This document shows positions 3,429 to 10,622 of a stretch of 64,000 bases of DNA, one piece after another. The position numbers and the translations under genes are program-made. The first letter of the stretch is position 1. The number at the start of each line of letters is the position of its first letter. Origin of the DNA: Cellulomonas citrea (lineage in GTDB: Bacteria; Actinomycetota; Actinomycetes; Actinomycetales; Cellulomonadaceae); contig NZ_VWSD01000004.1 in assembly GCF_009829685.1 (NCBI RefSeq), positions 1-64,000 on the forward strand, in the 5' to 3' direction. The notes beneath the pieces were generated by a model. The model saw nothing but the letters and a program-made list of their open reading frames with translations. It was not told the origin of the DNA and searched no databases.

Positions 3429-3503
3429 CGGGGACGGTGCCGACGCGGTGCTGCCCGGTTCGACCGGACCGGACGGCCTGCGCCGTCTAGAGTGGGACGA
3501 CCC

Positions 3504-3519
3504 GGGACGCTTCGGTCCC
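3504..3519. promoter_or_regulatory. Inverted repeat GGGAC-N6-GTCCC upstream of dxs
   Basis: GGGACGCTTCGGTCCC lies 45 bp before the dxs start and just after a TAGAGT -10-like hexamer (3488-3493), so it would fall in the 5' leader or at the transcription start. The 5-bp arms are perfect. The spacing (N6) differs from the DosR-like N4 boxes near 5.46 kb. It could be an operator or a small hairpin. Confidence 0.3.
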
Positions 3520-3563
3520 GTGACCCGTACGGCGCGGGTGCCGTACGTGGAGGAGGGACGGGC

Positions 3564-5444
3564 GTGGGACTGCTCGAGGGCATCCGTTCGCCGGCGGACG
3601 TGCAACGGCTGTCGGGCCGGCAGGTGGGACGTCTGGCGGACGAGATCCGCGCGTTCCTGGTCGACCAGGTCTCGCGCACGGGCGGGCACCTGGGCCCGAA
3701 CCTCGGCGTCGTCGAGCTGACGATCGCGCTGCACCGCGTCTTCAGCTCACCGCGCGACACCTTCGTGTTCGACACCGGGCACCAGTCGTACGTGCACAAG
3801 CTGCTCACCGGGCGCACCGACTTCTCGGGCCTGCGCAAGCGGGGCGGGCTGTCCGGCTACCCCTCTCGTGCCGAGTCCGAGCACGACGTGGTGGAGAACT
3901 CGCACGCCTCGACGGCGCTGTCCTGGGCGGACGGCATCGCCCGAGCGAACGCGATCACCGGGCAGGACGACCGTTCGGTCGTCGCGGTCATCGGTGACGG
4001 GGCGCTCACCGGCGGGATGGCGTGGGAGGCCCTCAACAACATCGCCGACGGCGACGACCGGGGCATCGTCATCGTGGTCAACGACAACGGGCGCTCGTAC
4101 GCGCCGACCATCGGCGGCCTGGCCCGGCACCTGGACGCGTTGCGCACCGCCCGCGGGTACGAGTCGATGCTCGAGTGGGGCAAGTCGACCCTGCGCCGCT
4201 CGGGCCCACCCGGACGGTTCGCCTACGACGCGCTGCACGGGCTGAAGAAGGGCATCAAGGACGTCGTCGCGCCGCAGCAGGGCATGTTCGAGGACCTCGG
4301 GCTGAAGTACATGGGTCCGGTCGACGGGCACGACGAGCCCGCGGTCGAGCGGGCGCTGCGGCTGGCCAAGGCGTACGGCGGGCCGGTGATCGTGCACGTC
4401 ATCACCCGCAAGGGGAAGGGCTACTCACCCGCCGAGCAGGACAGCGCCGACCGGTTCCACGCCGTGGTGCCGATCCACCCGGAGACCGGGCTGCCGCTCG
4501 CACCCTCGCGCTTCGGCTGGACCGCCGTGTTCGCCGACGAGATCGTGCAGATCGCGCGCCGCCGCCCCGACGTCGTCGCGCTCACCGCGGCCATGCTCCA
4601 GCCGGTCGGGCTGGCGGGGTTCGCGGCCGAGTTCCCCGAGCGCGTCGTCGACGTCGGCATCGCCGAGCAGCACGCTGCGACGGCCGCGGCCGGGATGGCG
4701 TTCGCCGGGCTGCACCCGGTGTTCGCGGTCTACGCGACGTTCCTCAACCGGGCGTTCGACCAGGTCCTCATGGACGTGGCGCTGCACAAGGCCGGGGTGA
4801 CCTTCGTGCTCGACCGTGCCGGGCTCACCGGTGACGACGGCGCGAGCCACAACGGGATGTGGGACCTCGCGCTGCTGTCCCTGGTGCCAGGTCTGCGGCT
4901 GGCCGCCCCGCGCGACGAGCGGACGTTGCGCGCGGCGCTGCGCACGGCGGTCGACGTCGACGACGCCCCGACCGTGGTCCGCTACCCGAAGGGCGCCCTC
5001 GGCCCGGAGCTGCCCGCCGTCGACGAGCTCGACGGGGTGGACGTGCTGGCACGGCACGAGGGCCGGGCCGACGAGCCCCGGGTGCTCGTGGTCGGCATCG
5101 GCTCGATGGCGGCGACCGCGCTCGGCGTCGGCGAGCTGCTGGCCGCGCACGGTCTCGGGGTGGAGGTCGTCGACCCGTGCTGGGCCCTGCCGCTGCCCAG
5201 TGCGCTGGTCAAGCTGGTGGGTGAGCGCGACTACGTGGTGACGATCGAGGACGGCCTGGTCGAGGGCGGGATCGGGACGTTGGTCGGTGCGGTCGGGGCC
5301 CGCACGGGCACCCGGGTGCAGTCGTTCGGGGTGCCCCGACGGTTCCTCGACCACGCCAGCCGGGACCAGCTCGTGGCCGAGCTGCACCTGGGCCCGCACG
5401 AGATCGCAGGCCAGGTGCTGGCGGGGCTCGCCGACACCGACTGA
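3564..5444 (+). CDS. dxs: 1-deoxy-D-xylulose-5-phosphate synthase
   Basis: A 626-residue thiamine-diphosphate enzyme that condenses pyruvate and glyceraldehyde 3-phosphate to DXP, the first step of the MEP isoprenoid pathway. The TPP/Mg motif GDGALTGG...VVNDNGRS sits at about residues 144-175. The start domain has [16 protein letters not shown], and the transketolase-like part has the catalytic-Glu region [11 protein letters not shown] and [16 protein letters not shown]. Length matches the family (620-640). I chose GTG at 3564 because AGGAGG at 3551-3556 is well spaced and the protein then begins MGLLEGI, like other Dxs. A longer frame upstream carries no similarity. Confidence 0.96.
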
Positions 5445-5545: not shown

Positions 5546-7423
5546 ATGAGCATCGACCTCACAGGGACGGCCGTCGCCGCCGCCTGGGCCGGCTTCGCCG
5601 CCGGCCCGTGGCAGGAACAGATCGACGTGCGCGACTTCGTGCTGCGCAACGTCGCGCCATCGTCATGCCGCGACGTGCCCCTCGCAGGGCCCTCCACCCG
5701 GGTCGCAGCCCTCGTGCAGCGCACCTCGGGTGAGGTCGGCGACTGGGTGGCCGAGCTCATCGTCGGGCTGCCCGCACAGGTCTGGCGCACGCTCGGCTCG
5801 CACAGCGCCTTGTCGCAGGAGTTCGACGACATCGCGCCGCAGGTGGTCCGCGCGGCCCGTGCGGCGCACCTGGTCGACGGGCCGGCCGACGGGGGCGGGC
5901 GGGTGCTCGGGGACGTGCGTCGGGTCGCCCTGTACGGCGTGGGGACACTGGCCGCGGCGAAGCGGGCCGAGCGCAACGACCTGGACCTGGTGGCCAGCAC
6001 CGAGCAGGTGGTGCGGCAGCGGGCCGACCTCGCCGAGCAGCTCATCGGGCTGACGCGGCTGGCCGAGCTCGGTGACCTCGCCGGGGTGGACCTCACCCAG
6101 CCGGCCAGGACGGCACGGGAGGCCGCGCAGTGGATGCTGCTCGCCTACCTCGCCGGGATGGTGGAGCACCAGACGGCCGAGACGGCCTGGGGCCGCAACG
6201 CGGCGTTCCTCGACGTCTACATCCAGCGGGACCTGGTCAGCGGCACGCTCACCCCGGCCAGCGCGCAGGAGATCTGCGACGACCTCGTGCTCGTGCTCGG
6301 CATGGTCGGGCGGCTGCGCGCGTGCCGGCCGGTGGTGCTCACGCTGGGCGGGACCGCCGAGGACGGGCGGCACCTGGTGACCGACACCTCGATGCGGTTC
6401 CTCCAGGCGTTCCGCAACGTGGCGGACGGTCCGCTGCCGGCCCTTGCCGTGCTGTGGTCCGCGCGGCTGCCCGAACCGTTCCGGCGGGGCTGCGCCCGGG
6501 CGAGCCTGGACGGCGTGCGGGTCACGTACGTCTCGGACGACCTGGTGCGCGCCTCGTGGGGGGACGACGCGGCGATCGTCGGCAACGCCTCGACGGCCGT
6601 CCGGGTGGGCCGGCAGGTGACCTACGGCGGGGTGCGGGTCAACCTCGCCAAGGCGTTGCTCTACGCGATCAACGGTGGGCGGGACGAGCTGACCGGGCGG
6701 CAGGTGGGGCCGGTGGCCTCGGCGGTCACCGGTGACCTGCTCGAGTTCGACGACGTGGTGCCGCGACTGCGGGCGACGCTGGACTGGCTCGCCGGAGTGG
6801 CGGTCGACGCGCTGGTCTGCGCGCACGCCACCCGCGACCGGTACGGCTACGAGCGGGTCGCGATGGGGCTGTCCGATGCGATCGTGCTGCGCTCGCTCGT
6901 GTGCGAGGTCGCGGGGGTGGCGATCGCGGCGGACGGGCTCGCCGCGATCCGGCACGCCAGGGTGCGGCCGGTGCGCTCCACCGACGGTCTGGTGGTCGAC
7001 GTCGAGGTCGAGGGTGTCGTGCCGCGTTTCGGCACGGACGACGACCGGGCCGACGACCTCGCGGTGTGGCTGCTGCGGACGTTCATGACGGCGTTGCGCG
7101 GCCGCCAGACCTATCGCGGGGCGATCCACGCCCAGGGCCTGGTGCGTCCGGCGGCGCAGGACGGGACCGCGACCGGTGCGACCCCGGACGGCCGGCCGGC
7201 CCAGGCGCCGCTGTTCGCCTGGACGGGCACCCCGGACGAGCTGGTGGCCTCGGTGGCGAAGATGCCGTACCCCGAGGCGCAGGCGGGGCTCGCGTGCCCC
7301 TACCCGGTGCACGCCGCCGATCTGGGCGAGACCACCGCGGCCCGCGGCGAGCGCCTCGTGGGGCTGGTGGACGCCGCGATCTGCCGGGGCGGGGCGTACG
7401 GACTGCTCGTCATCGTGCGCTGA
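5546..7423 (+). CDS. Pyruvate formate-lyase-like pseudoenzyme (no catalytic Cys pair, no glycyl-radical domain)
   Basis: This 625-residue protein aligns along nearly all of E. coli PflB (about 760 aa). It shares W-GF--G-WQ---DVRDF (residues 14-34), GDVRRVALYG (122-131), FLDVYIQRDL (221-230), NLAKALLYAINGG (366-378), QVGP and NTPDGR-like ATPDGR. R364 matches the substrate-binding Arg435. The catalytic Cys418-Cys419 region reads DDAAIVGNASTAVRVGRQ (G346-N347), with no cysteine between about residues 315 and 420. The chain stops at LVIVR, where PflB continues for roughly 85 more residues that include the RVSGY radical glycine. An insert carrying the Cys/Arg-rich region before GDYRR is also shortened. 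The long, gap-free frame with normal high-GC codon use argues for a maintained protein rather than a recent pseudogene. The intact activase follows 99 bp downstream. It cannot be an active PFL by the known mechanism. A scaffold, decoy or regulator of PflA or of a true PFL is inference. Confidence 0.85.
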   Translation: MSIDLTGTAVAAAWAGFAAGPWQEQIDVRDFVLRNVAPSSCRDVPLAGPSTRVAALVQRTSGEVGDWVAELIVGLPAQVWRTLGSHSALSQEFDDIAPQVVRAARAAHLVDGPADGGGRVLGDVRRVALYGVGTLAAAKRAERNDLDLVASTEQVVRQRADLAEQLIGLTRLAELGDLAGVDLTQPARTAREAAQWMLLAYLAGMVEHQTAETAWGRNAAFLDVYIQRDLVSGTLTPASAQEICDDLVLVLGMVGRLRACRPVVLTLGGTAEDGRHLVTDTSMRFLQAFRNVADGPLPALAVLWSARLPEPFRRGCARASLDGVRVTYVSDDLVRASWGDDAAIVGNASTAVRVGRQVTYGGVRVNLAKALLYAINGGRDELTGRQVGPVASAVTGDLLEFDDVVPRLRATLDWLAGVAVDALVCAHATRDRYGYERVAMGLSDAIVLRSLVCEVAGVAIAADGLAAIRHARVRPVRSTDGLVVDVEVEGVVPRFGTDDDRADDLAVWLLRTFMTALRGRQTYRGAIHAQGLVRPAAQDGTATGATPDGRPAQAPLFAWTGTPDELVASVAKMPYPEAQAGLACPYPVHAADLGETTAARGERLVGLVDAAICRGGAYGLLVIVR

Positions 7424-7473
7424 GGCTCACGGAGGTCGACCGGGACGCGCTGAGGTCCGGTGCGGCGCACCGA

Positions 7474-7487
7474 GGGACGAGAGTCCT
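7474..7487 (+). promoter_or_regulatory. DosR/DevR-like box upstream of pflA
   Basis: GGGACGAGAGTCCT matches the GGGAC-N4-GTCCC palindrome at 9 of 10 fixed positions. If transcription starts at the pflA ATG (7523), as the CAGAAT -10 implies, the box centre is at -42.5. That is the same placement as the proximal box of the preceding gene. Confidence 0.5.
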
Positions 7488-7510
7488 GGGATGAGTGCGG
7501 CGCCGGGTGA

Positions 7511-7516
7511 CAGAAT
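7511..7516 (+). promoter_or_regulatory. -10 element of pflA (CAGAAT), leaderless promoter
   Basis: CAGAAT ends 6 nt before the ATG and there is no Shine-Dalgarno sequence, so pflA is probably read from a leaderless transcript in addition to any read-through from the upstream gene. Confidence 0.45.
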
Positions 7517-7522
7517 CAACCC

Positions 7523-8407
7523 ATGAATCTTCCGGTGGTGCCGGCCCAGGGGGCTCCCGTCGTGGAGCTGGGGCTGCCGATGGTCGCCGGGTCGAGCACG
7601 AGGACGGCCGGTCACGGCACCGCCGGGCTCGTCGAGCACGAGCTGGCGCGGACGGAGCGGTTCGCCGCGCTGCGTGCCGGCGACCTGGGCTCGGTGCACT
7701 CCTGGGAGCTCGTCACGGCCGTGGACGGACCCGGTACCCGGATGACCGTGTTCCTGTCCGGGTGCCCGCTGCAGTGCCTCTACTGCCACAACCCTGACAC
7801 GATGCAGATGCGTCGCGGCACCCCGATCGAGGCCGATGAGCTCATCGGGCGGATGCGCCGCTACCGGGCCGTCTTCCGGTCCACCGGCGGCGGTGTGACG
7901 GTCTCCGGCGGCGAGCCGCTCATGCAGCCGGCCTTCACCGCACGGCTGCTGCGCGGCGCCAAGGAGCTCGGCATCTCCACCGCGCTCGACACCTCGGGCT
8001 TCCTGGGTGCGGCGTGCACCGACGCGATGATCGACGACCTCGACCTCGTGCTGCTCGACATCAAGTCGGGTCTGCCCGACACCTACCGCAAGGTCACCGG
8101 CCGGGACCTGGCGCCGACGCTGGAGTTCGGCCGTCGGCTCACCGAGCACGGCACGCCCATCTGGGTGCGGTTCGTGCTGGTCCCGGGCCTCACCGACGCC
8201 GTGGAGAACGTCGAGGCGGTCGCCGACCACGTCGCCGCGCTGCCGACCGTGACCCGCGTCGAGGTGCTGCCGTTCCACCAGATGGGTCGCGACAAGTGGG
8301 CCGACCTGGGGATGCGCTACGAGCTGGCGGACACCCGCCCGCCGAGCCACGAGCTCGTCGACCGGGTCCGCGGCCAGTTCCGGGCCCGGGGCATCACGAC
8401 CTTCTGA
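7523..8407 (+). CDS. pflA: Pyruvate formate-lyase activating enzyme (radical SAM)
   Basis: A 294-residue radical-SAM glycyl-radical-enzyme activase. It has the cluster motif CPLQCLYC (C81, C85, C88; CxxxCxxC), followed by HNPDTM, the SAM-binding GGVTVSGGEPL, and the conserved DTSGFLG, LLDIKSG, WVRFVLVPGLTD and EVLPFHQMGRDKW. All elements needed to make a glycyl radical look intact. It is about 48 residues longer at the N-terminus than E. coli PflA. The extra segment is low-complexity, and a start at an internal Met is possible. Its adjacent partner lacks the radical glycine, so its substrate must be another glycyl-radical enzyme or a free-standing GrcA-like protein elsewhere in the genome. 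Confidence 0.93.
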   Translation: MNLPVVPAQGAPVVELGLPMVAGSSTRTAGHGTAGLVEHELARTERFAALRAGDLGSVHSWELVTAVDGPGTRMTVFLSGCPLQCLYCHNPDTMQMRRGTPIEADELIGRMRRYRAVFRSTGGGVTVSGGEPLMQPAFTARLLRGAKELGISTALDTSGFLGAACTDAMIDDLDLVLLDIKSGLPDTYRKVTGRDLAPTLEFGRRLTEHGTPIWVRFVLVPGLTDAVENVEAVADHVAALPTVTRVEVLPFHQMGRDKWADLGMRYELADTRPPSHELVDRVRGQFRARGITTF

Positions 8408-8413
8408 GCACCG

Positions 8414-8445
8414 GCCCGACGGCCCGAGCTCTCGGACCGTCGGGC
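8414..8445 (+). terminator. Terminator hairpin after pflA
   Basis: Perfect 9-bp arms GCCCGACGG / CCGTCGGGC (8414-8422, 8437-8445) enclose a smaller CCGAG/CTCGG stem. There is no T tract, as is usual in high-GC actinobacteria. Confidence 0.55.
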
Positions 8446-8504
8446 GCCTGAACCTGTCGGCGGCTCCTCAGGGAGCGGCTCGGTGGCTCAGCGGGTCCGG
8501 TGGC

Positions 8505-10622
8505 TCAGCCCACCGCGGCGACCTCGGGGACGTCGGCCACGCCCGGTTCCAGCAGCCGGTGACCCAGGACGCGGGTCGACCAGCCCGTGCGGTCCAGATA
8601 GGGGCAGATGCCGCCGAGGTGGAAGCCCCAGCCCGCGCCCAGGATCATGCACAGGTCGATCTGGCGGGGGTCGCTCACCACGCCCTCGGCGAGCATCCGT
8701 CCGATCTCGGTGGACAGGGCCGCGAGCACGGCGTCGCGGACGCCGGCCTCGTCCAGCGGGACCTGCTCGCCCGTGCGGTGCGCGGCGAACACGGCTGCGA
8801 CGGCCGGGTCGACCCGGCGCGGCAGGCCCTTGCCACGGGCCGGCAGCACGATCGGCACCCGGTCGGCCACCACGGTGGTGAGCCCGGCGGACACCGGGAA
8901 ACGCGGGCCGAGCTCGTCGTGCAGCGACTGCAGCACGTGCAGGCCGACGGCGGGGCCCACCAGGTCGAGCAGCTCGAACGGGGGCATGGGCAGGCCGAGC
9001 GGGTCGAGCGCCCGGTCGGCCACCTCGATGTCGGTGCCGTGGTCCACCGCATCGACCACGACGCCGAGCAGCAGCACGAGCAGCCGGTTGACGACGAACC
9101 CGGGGTGGTCGGTCACGAGGACGGCGGTCTTGCGCAGGCGTGCGACCACCTCGAAGGCCGTCGCGAGCGTCTCGGGCGAGGTCGCCTCGGCCTGCACCAC
9201 CTCGACGAGCGGCATCGCGGCCACAGGGTTGAAGAAGTGCAGTCCCACGACGCGTTCGGGGTGCGAGAGGTGCGCCGCCATCGCCGTGACGGACAGCGCG
9301 GAGGTGTTGGTCGCCAGGACGGCGCTCGGCGACACCACCTGTTCCAGCTCGGCGAACACCCGCTTCTTGACGTCGAGCAGCTCGGTGACGGCCTCGACCA
9401 CGAGGTCGCACCCGGCGAACACGGACAGCTCGGTGCTGCCGGTCACCTGCCCGAGGAGCCGCTGGGCCGCGTCCGGGGTCAGCCGGCCGCGCTCGACCTG
9501 GGCCTCGACCTGCCGTCGCACGGCCGCCAGGCCCGCGGCGACGCGGTCGGCGTCCAGGTCCCGGATCACGACGGGGACGGCGAGCCGCTGGGCGAGGAGC
9601 ACCGCGATCTGGGCCGCCATCAGCCCGGCGCCGACCACACCGGCGCGGGTGACCGGGGTGGCGAGCGACCGGTCTGGCGCACCGACGGGTCGCTTCGCGC
9701 TCCCGACCAGGGAGAACGCATAGACGCTTGCCCGCATCTCATCGGACATGATCAGGTCGGCGAGCGCCTCGTCCTCGGCGGCGAACGCCTCGTCGCGGCT
9801 CGCGGTGCGGGCGGCTGCGACGAGGTCGAGCGCACGGGCCGGTGCGGGTCGCGACCCGTGCACGACCTCCTCGAGCCGGGCGCGGGCGGCCGCGGTGGCG
9901 GCGTCCCAGGTGGCCTGGTCGTCGAGCGGACGGCGGGGGACCTCGACCTGGCCCCGCACCACAGCAGCGGCCCACCGGATCGACTGCTCGAGGAAGTCGG
10001 CCGGGTCGAGCACGACGTCGACCAGACCGATCTGGGCCGCCTGGGCCGCTGTGAACGGCTTGTTCGCGGCGGGCCGGGTGAGGATGACGTCGAGCGCGGC
10101 GACCACGCCGACGAGGCGAGGCACCCGGTAGGCACCGCCCCAGCCGGGCACGAGGCCGAGGCTCGTCTCGGGCAGGCCCAGGGCGCGCACGTCGGCCGCG
10201 GCCGTGCGGTACCCGGCTGCCAGCGCGAGCTCGAACCCGCCGCCCAGGGCGACCCCGTTGACGAACGCGAAGGTCGGCACGGGAAGGTCCGTGAGCAGGT
10301 TGAACACGCGGTGCCCGGCCTGGGCGAGGGCGAGGGCGCTGTCGCGGTCGGCGGCGGTGGTGACCTGCTTGAGATCGGCCCCGGCCGCGAAGACGTACGG
10401 CTTGCCGGTGACGGCGACCGCGGCGACACCGCCTGCGGCCACCCGTTCGCCGACGGCGCGCAGGGTGGTCTCCAGCTCGGCGAGCCCGGCGGGTCCGAAC
10501 GTCGTGGGCCGGGTGTGGTCGAACCCGTTGTCCAGGGTGACGAGCACCATCGTCCCGGCGCCGTCGGGCAGCTGGACGTCGCGGGCGAACGCGTGCGTGA
10601 CGAGCTCGGTGTAGGTGCTCAC
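8505..10622 (-). CDS. fadB: Fatty-acid oxidation multifunctional protein: enoyl-CoA hydratase / 3-hydroxyacyl-CoA dehydrogenase
   Basis: A 705-residue two-part enzyme. Residues 1-190 are a crotonase fold with GADLKQV and the oxyanion segment VNGVALGGGFELALAAGYR, plus ETSLGLVPGWGG. From about residue 325 comes a 3-hydroxyacyl-CoA dehydrogenase with the NAD-binding GVVGAGLMAAQIAVLL (the usual third Gly is Ala), LATNTSALS and the active-site LHFFNPVAAMPLVEVV. It hydrates 2-enoyl-CoA and oxidises the 3-hydroxyacyl-CoA in beta-oxidation. The GTG start at 10622 overlaps the thiolase stop (GTGA), so the two are translationally coupled and probably form a trifunctional complex. Confidence 0.93.
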   Translation of the reverse strand: MSTYTELVTHAFARDVQLPDGAGTMVLVTLDNGFDHTRPTTFGPAGLAELETTLRAVGERVAAGGVAAVAVTGKPYVFAAGADLKQVTTAADRDSALALAQAGHRVFNLLTDLPVPTFAFVNGVALGGGFELALAAGYRTAAADVRALGLPETSLGLVPGWGGAYRVPRLVGVVAALDVILTRPAANKPFTAAQAAQIGLVDVVLDPADFLEQSIRWAAAVVRGQVEVPRRPLDDQATWDAATAAARARLEEVVHGSRPAPARALDLVAAARTASRDEAFAAEDEALADLIMSDEMRASVYAFSLVGSAKRPVGAPDRSLATPVTRAGVVGAGLMAAQIAVLLAQRLAVPVVIRDLDADRVAAGLAAVRRQVEAQVERGRLTPDAAQRLLGQVTGSTELSVFAGCDLVVEAVTELLDVKKRVFAELEQVVSPSAVLATNTSALSVTAMAAHLSHPERVVGLHFFNPVAAMPLVEVVQAEATSPETLATAFEVVARLRKTAVLVTDHPGFVVNRLLVLLLGVVVDAVDHGTDIEVADRALDPLGLPMPPFELLDLVGPAVGLHVLQSLHDELGPRFPVSAGLTTVVADRVPIVLPARGKGLPRRVDPAVAAVFAAHRTGEQVPLDEAGVRDAVLAALSTEIGRMLAEGVVSDPRQIDLCMILGAGWGFHLGGICPYLDRTGWSTRVLGHRLLEPGVADVPEVAAVG

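Follow-up and report, generated by a model that had tools for sequence, protein, structure and literature searches.

The closest described systems include E. coli PflB (formate C-acetyltransferase 1), a pyruvate formate-lyase (PFL, an enzyme of fermentation) in which roles have been described for the cysteine pair C418/C419 and for G734 (PMC12338860). PFL is reported to be a homodimer with more than 65 A between its active sites and with no passage of the radical from one subunit to the other, and a laboratory variant lacking both cysteines, C418A/C419A, has the PFL fold, keeps G734 and takes the radical (PMC12338860; structure 1cm5). Aminoacyl radical enzymes, non-canonical homologues of the glycyl-radical enzymes, swap the glycine for alanine, serine or threonine and are described as preserving the catalytic cysteine; two such paralogues near one activase are reported possibly to interact weakly, a relation whose relevance the authors call unknown (PMC11528403). 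In trypanosomes, two unrelated enzymes provide a further likeness: prozyme and a dead deoxyhypusine synthase paralogue are each kept beside an active paralogue, and the dead copies are reported to activate their live partners (PMC5201418, PMC3663545). Many enzyme families are known to include pseudoenzymes. We know of no glycyl-radical enzyme with a dead paralogous partner, and among the full-text matches listed, as judged from titles and the starts of abstracts in a collection that mostly excludes subscription journals, no pseudoenzyme of PFL or of any glycyl-radical enzyme appears, in agreement with the sequence-only reading of this locus, which was aware of no described PFL pseudoenzyme. 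Matches combining glycyl radical with pseudoenzyme bore titles on microcompartments and the benzylsuccinate pathway.

The window, the whole 64,000-nucleotide stretch analysed from Cellulomonas citrea (genome G000), contains the following features.

Positions 3492-5444, forward strand: dxs, a conserved gene upstream of PFL1 by which the ancestral PFL1 slot is recognised (TIGR00204, 568.1 bits).
Positions 5546-7423, forward strand: pseudo-PFL, the PFL1 orthologue, 625 aa (PF02901, E 3.4e-91; intact orthologues, dN/dS 0.026-0.038).
Positions 5900-5902, forward strand: R119, equivalent to E. coli R176, kept (alignment).
Positions 6329-6334, forward strand: junction of residues 262/263, where a 10-residue loop (E. 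coli F327, W333) is missing (alignment).
Positions 6578-6592, forward strand: the former Cys-Cys loop, residues 345-349, VGNAS (E. coli A417-C418-C419-V420-S421), without cysteine (alignments).
Positions 6635-6637, forward strand: R364, equivalent to E. coli R435, kept (alignment).
Positions 7346-7423, forward strand: the shortened C-terminus, ending near E. coli residue 710, before the glycyl-radical loop (model alignment to residue 710 of 1cm5/1mzo).
Positions 7523-8407, forward strand: pflA, encoding an intact radical-SAM PFL-activating enzyme (TIGR02493, 295.6 bits, cut-off 231.75).

The pseudo-PFL reading frame opens with ATG, five bases downstream of a GGAG seen by eye, and its GC content at codon positions 1/2/3 is 0.78/0.52/0.95 (GC3 0.954); a scan for promoters and terminators found none. 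The protein scores 307.3 bits against PF02901 (cut-off 24.3), which places it in the PFL-like family, and 413.9 bits against the formate C-acetyltransferase equivalog TIGR01255, below the cut-off of 994.2 and thus outside that narrower group. Its nearest solved relatives by sequence are PFLs. The near-full-length alignment with PflB described in the sequence-only reading was recovered, with E. coli residues 7-53 and 148-691 covered by sequence and residues 1-710 by the predicted model. That AlphaFold2 model (mean pLDDT 78.1, pTM 0.81), built on 13 sequences and with residues 534-565 below pLDDT 50, matches E. coli PFL 2pfl best by fold (Z 40.3, rmsd 2.5, 596 residues) and gives Z 35.5-40.3 and rmsd 2.4-2.6 over 528-613 residues across four E. 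coli PFL entries, so that superposition, a check suggested with the earlier reading, returns the PFL fold.

Turning to the active site, the earlier reading had listed a missing cysteine pair, a missing radical-glycine domain and a retained R364. Each of these stands: E. coli 418/419 align with G-N in pseudo-PFL and G-S in its orthologues, with one inserted residue alongside (gap placement ambiguous), and the chain ends near E. coli 710, before G734, without a glycyl-radical domain. As a list of losses, however, that account was incomplete, since the F327/W333 loop is also gone, about 60 residues are missing from the N-terminal region, roughly between E. coli 54 and 147, and Gly stands at the F432 equivalent when the protein is aligned with E. 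coli PflB and with canonical relatives. In E. coli, R176, R435, F327, W333, F432, N145 and F149 are residues with roles in PFL. Because pseudo-PFL has no thiyl-forming cysteine, no radical glycine and none of W333, F327 and F432, PFL chemistry is predicted to be impossible for it, and as judged from its sequence it is a natural PFL pseudoenzyme. It resembles E. coli PflB in predicted fold, in both arginines and in a gene adjoining pflA, but differs from it in all of these losses. Unlike the C418A/C419A variant it has no glycine loop, and unlike the aminoacyl radical enzymes it lacks both the radical residue and the cysteine.

Intact orthologues were found in two other records, both metagenome-assembled: G012 ('Cellulomonas sp. 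isolate bin N1.63'; 89% complete, 6% contamination) and G088 ('Actinomycetota bacterium isolate KR13_N1.mb.16'; 81% complete), whose proteins are 88% and 86% identical to pseudo-PFL and are sisters of each other; both names contain 'N1', and unrelated sampling is not claimed. All three proteins have 625 aa, no indels and the same losses, with a VGNAS or VGSAS loop and without the glycine domain. An ordinary PFL that had been mis-sequenced or mis-assembled might be suspected in a genome as fragmented as this one (434 contigs), but the same losses recur in these two differently accessioned records, and the glycyl-radical motif R[VI]xGYAV occurs in no frame of the window in an exact-motif scan, which a mutated remnant could escape; a frameshift or assembly error was rejected on these two grounds, and an ordinary PFL behind the sequence is barely credible.

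Under a codon model (625 codons, no gaps), the three orthologues give dN/dS values of 0.026-0.038, comparable to those of the neighbouring pflA (0.030-0.048) and dxs (0.022-0.037), and neutrality (dN/dS = 1) is rejected with 2*delta lnL of 461-561. Synonymous divergence is high for G000 against the other two (dS 2.3-2.6); the cleanest pair, G012-G088, has dS 0.94 and dN/dS 0.038, with 192 of its 246 nucleotide differences at third codon positions. The stem branch leading to pseudo-PFL is very long, at 2.3 changes per site in the first tree and 4.0 under a mixture model, so the protein appears to have altered greatly and then been held, and a long stem followed by constraint fits a new function better than decay. 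Neither pflA nor PFL2, the second PFL of this lineage, shows an acceleration in the trees to match. A pseudogene in decay might be argued from redundancy with PFL2, from the absence of PFL1 in the sister genome G084 and from that same stem, but three intact orthologues without a single indel, together with the dN/dS and likelihood values above, make this very improbable, and it was set aside.

Constraint is high in residues 326-525, which hold the old Cys loop and R435: in this block, picked after viewing the table, 188 of 200 residues are invariant, compared with 527 of 625 overall, and dN/dS is 0.011. Together with the retention of the R176 and R435 equivalents in all three orthologues, this would suit a sensor that binds a ligand, or an enzyme whose old pocket now performs some other chemistry without radicals. 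With F327, W333 and F432 gone, however, the pocket for pyruvate does not survive in its original form, and constraint on the core may be purely structural; we regard this explanation as quite unlikely.

The pseudoenzyme reading also gains from the rest of the genome. PF02901 finds two proteins in G000, pseudo-PFL and a PFL2 on contig C425 that carries both an ACCVS loop and an RVSGYAV glycine motif, the canonical PFL for which a search had been suggested. The only Gly_radical match in the genome lies inside PFL2, so no separate glycyl-radical protein of the GrcA kind was found; rescue by such a protein was discarded on this count, and the cysteines are missing regardless. Catalytic residues have thus been lost and purifying selection at the protein level is present, and the pseudoenzyme proposed by the sequence-only reading is borne out by intact orthologues with the same losses, by dN/dS, by a canonical PFL2 and by the lack of a separate glycine protein. 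We are highly confident that pseudo-PFL is a pseudoenzyme under selection.

The activase that this reading had placed beside it is likewise intact. In G000 no pflA but the one at 7523-8407 exceeds the family cut-off (the sole other match scores 55.9 bits), and no pflA was found on the 12.1-kb contig of PFL2; because this gene is single, its product presumably activates PFL2. Pseudo-PFL might therefore be imagined as a regulator that binds its neighbour-encoded activase as a decoy or chaperone and sets the level of PFL2 activation, given that it lies directly upstream of this sole pflA while PFL2 lies elsewhere in G000 and G012. PflA, however, binds the glycine loop of PFL, which pseudo-PFL lacks; pflA is not accelerated in the pseudo-PFL lineage; and in the genus a PFL gene commonly adjoins pflA, so that the arrangement calls for no special explanation. 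Such a regulator seems decidedly unlikely.

A PFL core that ends before the glycine domain is also seen in the split PFLs of Actinomycetales, which lie beside pflA in the three loci checked. Split PFLs, however, keep Cys-Cys and have the glycine piece alongside, whereas the window's genome shows no spare glycine piece. The arrangement, a Cys-Cys core without the glycine domain followed by a downstream RVSGYAV reading frame, occurs in 28 of the 29 loci L117-L145 (not L140) and also in L042 (G037), L043 (G053) and L090 (Brachybacterium squillarum NZ_AGBX01000006.1, 7935-10061), with pflA following in these last three; in Brachybacterium the separate glycine frame is about 80 aa. No description of split PFL was among the literature matches listed, by title or abstract start. 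Sixteen IMG/VR contigs classed as viral (L101-L116) encode PFL relatives of 52-57% identity, perhaps on host DNA; the matched stretch of L103 contains four stops in the standard code.

Across the genus, a PFL match was found in 78 of 81 genomes, and the PFL1 Cys loop was readable in 76 of the 81 (49 in a first reading, 27 in a later one), the other five having no match (G004, G082, G083), PFL2 only (G084) or contigs that break there (G087). PFL1 carries Cys-Cys in 71 of these 76; the exceptions are G000, G012, G088, G090 and G032. The loop reads ASAVS in G090 (61% complete) and ACAVS in G032, both with the glycine domain. Their PFL1 proteins (L036 in G032, L064 in G090) have C419A (plus C418S in G090), R176Q, F327C and F432V with an intact glycyl-radical motif, and evolve at dN/dS 0.021 without gaps. 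By sequence these too are dead, a second natural kind of dead PFL, though one that could still take a radical; the G090 protein is nearer than pseudo-PFL to a natural look-alike of the C418A/C419A variant. A profile search of 221 family genomes, of the kind suggested with the earlier reading, recovered intact orthologues with the same losses in three (1364-1376 bits; next best 565), with a profile that would miss the G032/G090 type; Cys loops were read in individual loci, so that the survey of Cys-less PFLs covers the genus. The pseudo-PFL type is not widely conserved.

Eight genomes yielded a PFL2 (G000, G012, G032, G090, G027, G034, G080 and G084). PFL2 is present with Cys-Cys in four of the five genomes whose PFL1 is Cys-deficient, although in G012 it runs off the contig before the glycine, and it was not found in the fifth, the 81%-complete G088. 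Three genomes (G027, G034, G080) have PFL2 together with a Cys-Cys PFL1.

Gene order identifies the slot that pseudo-PFL occupies. Both dxs and pflA flank PFL in 28 of the 30 loci L001-L030, a count that excludes 27 genomes of the later Cys-loop reading; dxs was unseen within the short flanks of L014 and L030. The order in G000, G012 and G088 is dxs-pseudoPFL-pflA-fadB, with PFL2 on a separate contig in G000 and G012, while in G027, G034, G080, G032 and G090 PFL2 comes after pflA. Pseudo-PFL sits in the dxs-PFL1-pflA slot and is a relative of PFL1, the PFL native to the genus, that has degenerated yet is held by selection. In G084 (L097, G084:C13), pflA (7927-8721) comes next after dxs (5760-7688), no PFL intervenes, and PFL2 lies on a different contig; PFL1 was therefore probably lost. 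This genome is the sister of G000/G012/G088 for dxs (100/99), for pflA (100/98) and in a four-gene tree that includes both (100/100).

Whether the two dead groups share one inactivation depends on the gene consulted. The first PFL1 tree joins G000/G012/G088 with G032/G090 (100/95), but a mixture model lowers this to 90/75 and leaves alternative placements unrejected, with p values of 0.116 and 0.209; PFL2 instead groups G032/G090 with G027/G034/G080 (97/90 and 97/91), and the four-gene tree does not settle how the three groups are related. In both PFL trees the sequences of the three pseudo-PFLs drew a warning of unusual composition. Nor are the dead sites alike: G032/G090 carry R176Q, retain W333 and the glycine loop and lose C419, whereas the window's group keeps R176 and loses W333, both cysteines and the glycine. 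Because the PFL2 grouping disagrees, the four-gene tree leaves the matter unsettled and the dead sites differ, it is possible that inactivation occurred twice, independently.

Since the catalytic parts were lost and selection protects the remainder, beside the working copy's activator gene, pseudo-PFL has probably acquired a new function, as a helper or in regulation. Possibly, catalysis passed to PFL2 while PFL1 was left with a role outside catalysis, of which a partner subunit of PFL2 is the likeliest form. With active sites more than 65 A apart and radical transfer confined to a subunit, a live subunit could take a dead one as its partner, and the dead one could then alter how stable PFL2 is, how the single PflA activates it, or how it is regulated. 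We put this heterodimer forward tentatively, by analogy. Of the 76 readable genomes, five have a PFL1 without one or both cysteines, and four of these also yielded a PFL2; against pairing, G000 and G012 carry PFL2 on a contig other than that of pseudo-PFL, neither pflA nor PFL2 has sped up along with the long pseudo-PFL stem, no PFL2 was found in the 81%-complete G088, G027, G034 and G080 have PFL2 yet retain a Cys-Cys PFL1, and PFL2 in G084, which has no PFL1, can apparently do without pseudo-PFL. The association of a Cys-deficient PFL1 with PFL2 amounts to one or two evolutionary events and so carries no statistical weight. Activation of a live partner is reported for the trypanosome paralogues, whereas for pseudo-PFL we infer it.

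An explanation that needs no contact with PFL2 is that dead PFL1 kept only a scaffolding role at the FocA formate channel. In E. coli the PflB-FocA interaction is reported as essential for bidirectional formate translocation in vivo (PMC11841067), and a FocA/NirC-family gene is present in G000, G012, G088, G032 and G090, while no match was found in G084, which also lacks PFL1. The channel gene adjoins a malic enzyme look-alike (by eye) in G032 (L094), and in G000 (L098, G000:C80:4471-5196) the look-alike is the next gene but one. On the other side, the G000 channel is on a different contig from pseudo-PFL, and seven of the 81 genus genomes show no channel, including G008, G013 and G022, all three with a Cys-Cys PFL1, so a tight correlation with FocA is not seen. 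We consider a channel-only role unlikely.

Returning to the partner subunit, a two-gene PFL in which a pseudo-subunit without thiyl and glycyl radical sites tunes a live paralogue is a possibility we consider less likely than not; if it is true, we know of no earlier glycyl-radical enzyme that has a dead paralogue as its partner. A single genus holds a graded series, from intact PFL1 through PFL1 without one or both cysteines but with the radical glycine to PFL1 that has neither. Purifying selection acts on both dead groups, and a live second PFL was found in four of the five genomes in which they occur. This series makes it possible to test the reason for the dimeric state of PFL, non-chemical roles of its subunits (FocA, PflA, partner control) and the way a radical enzyme is converted to another use.
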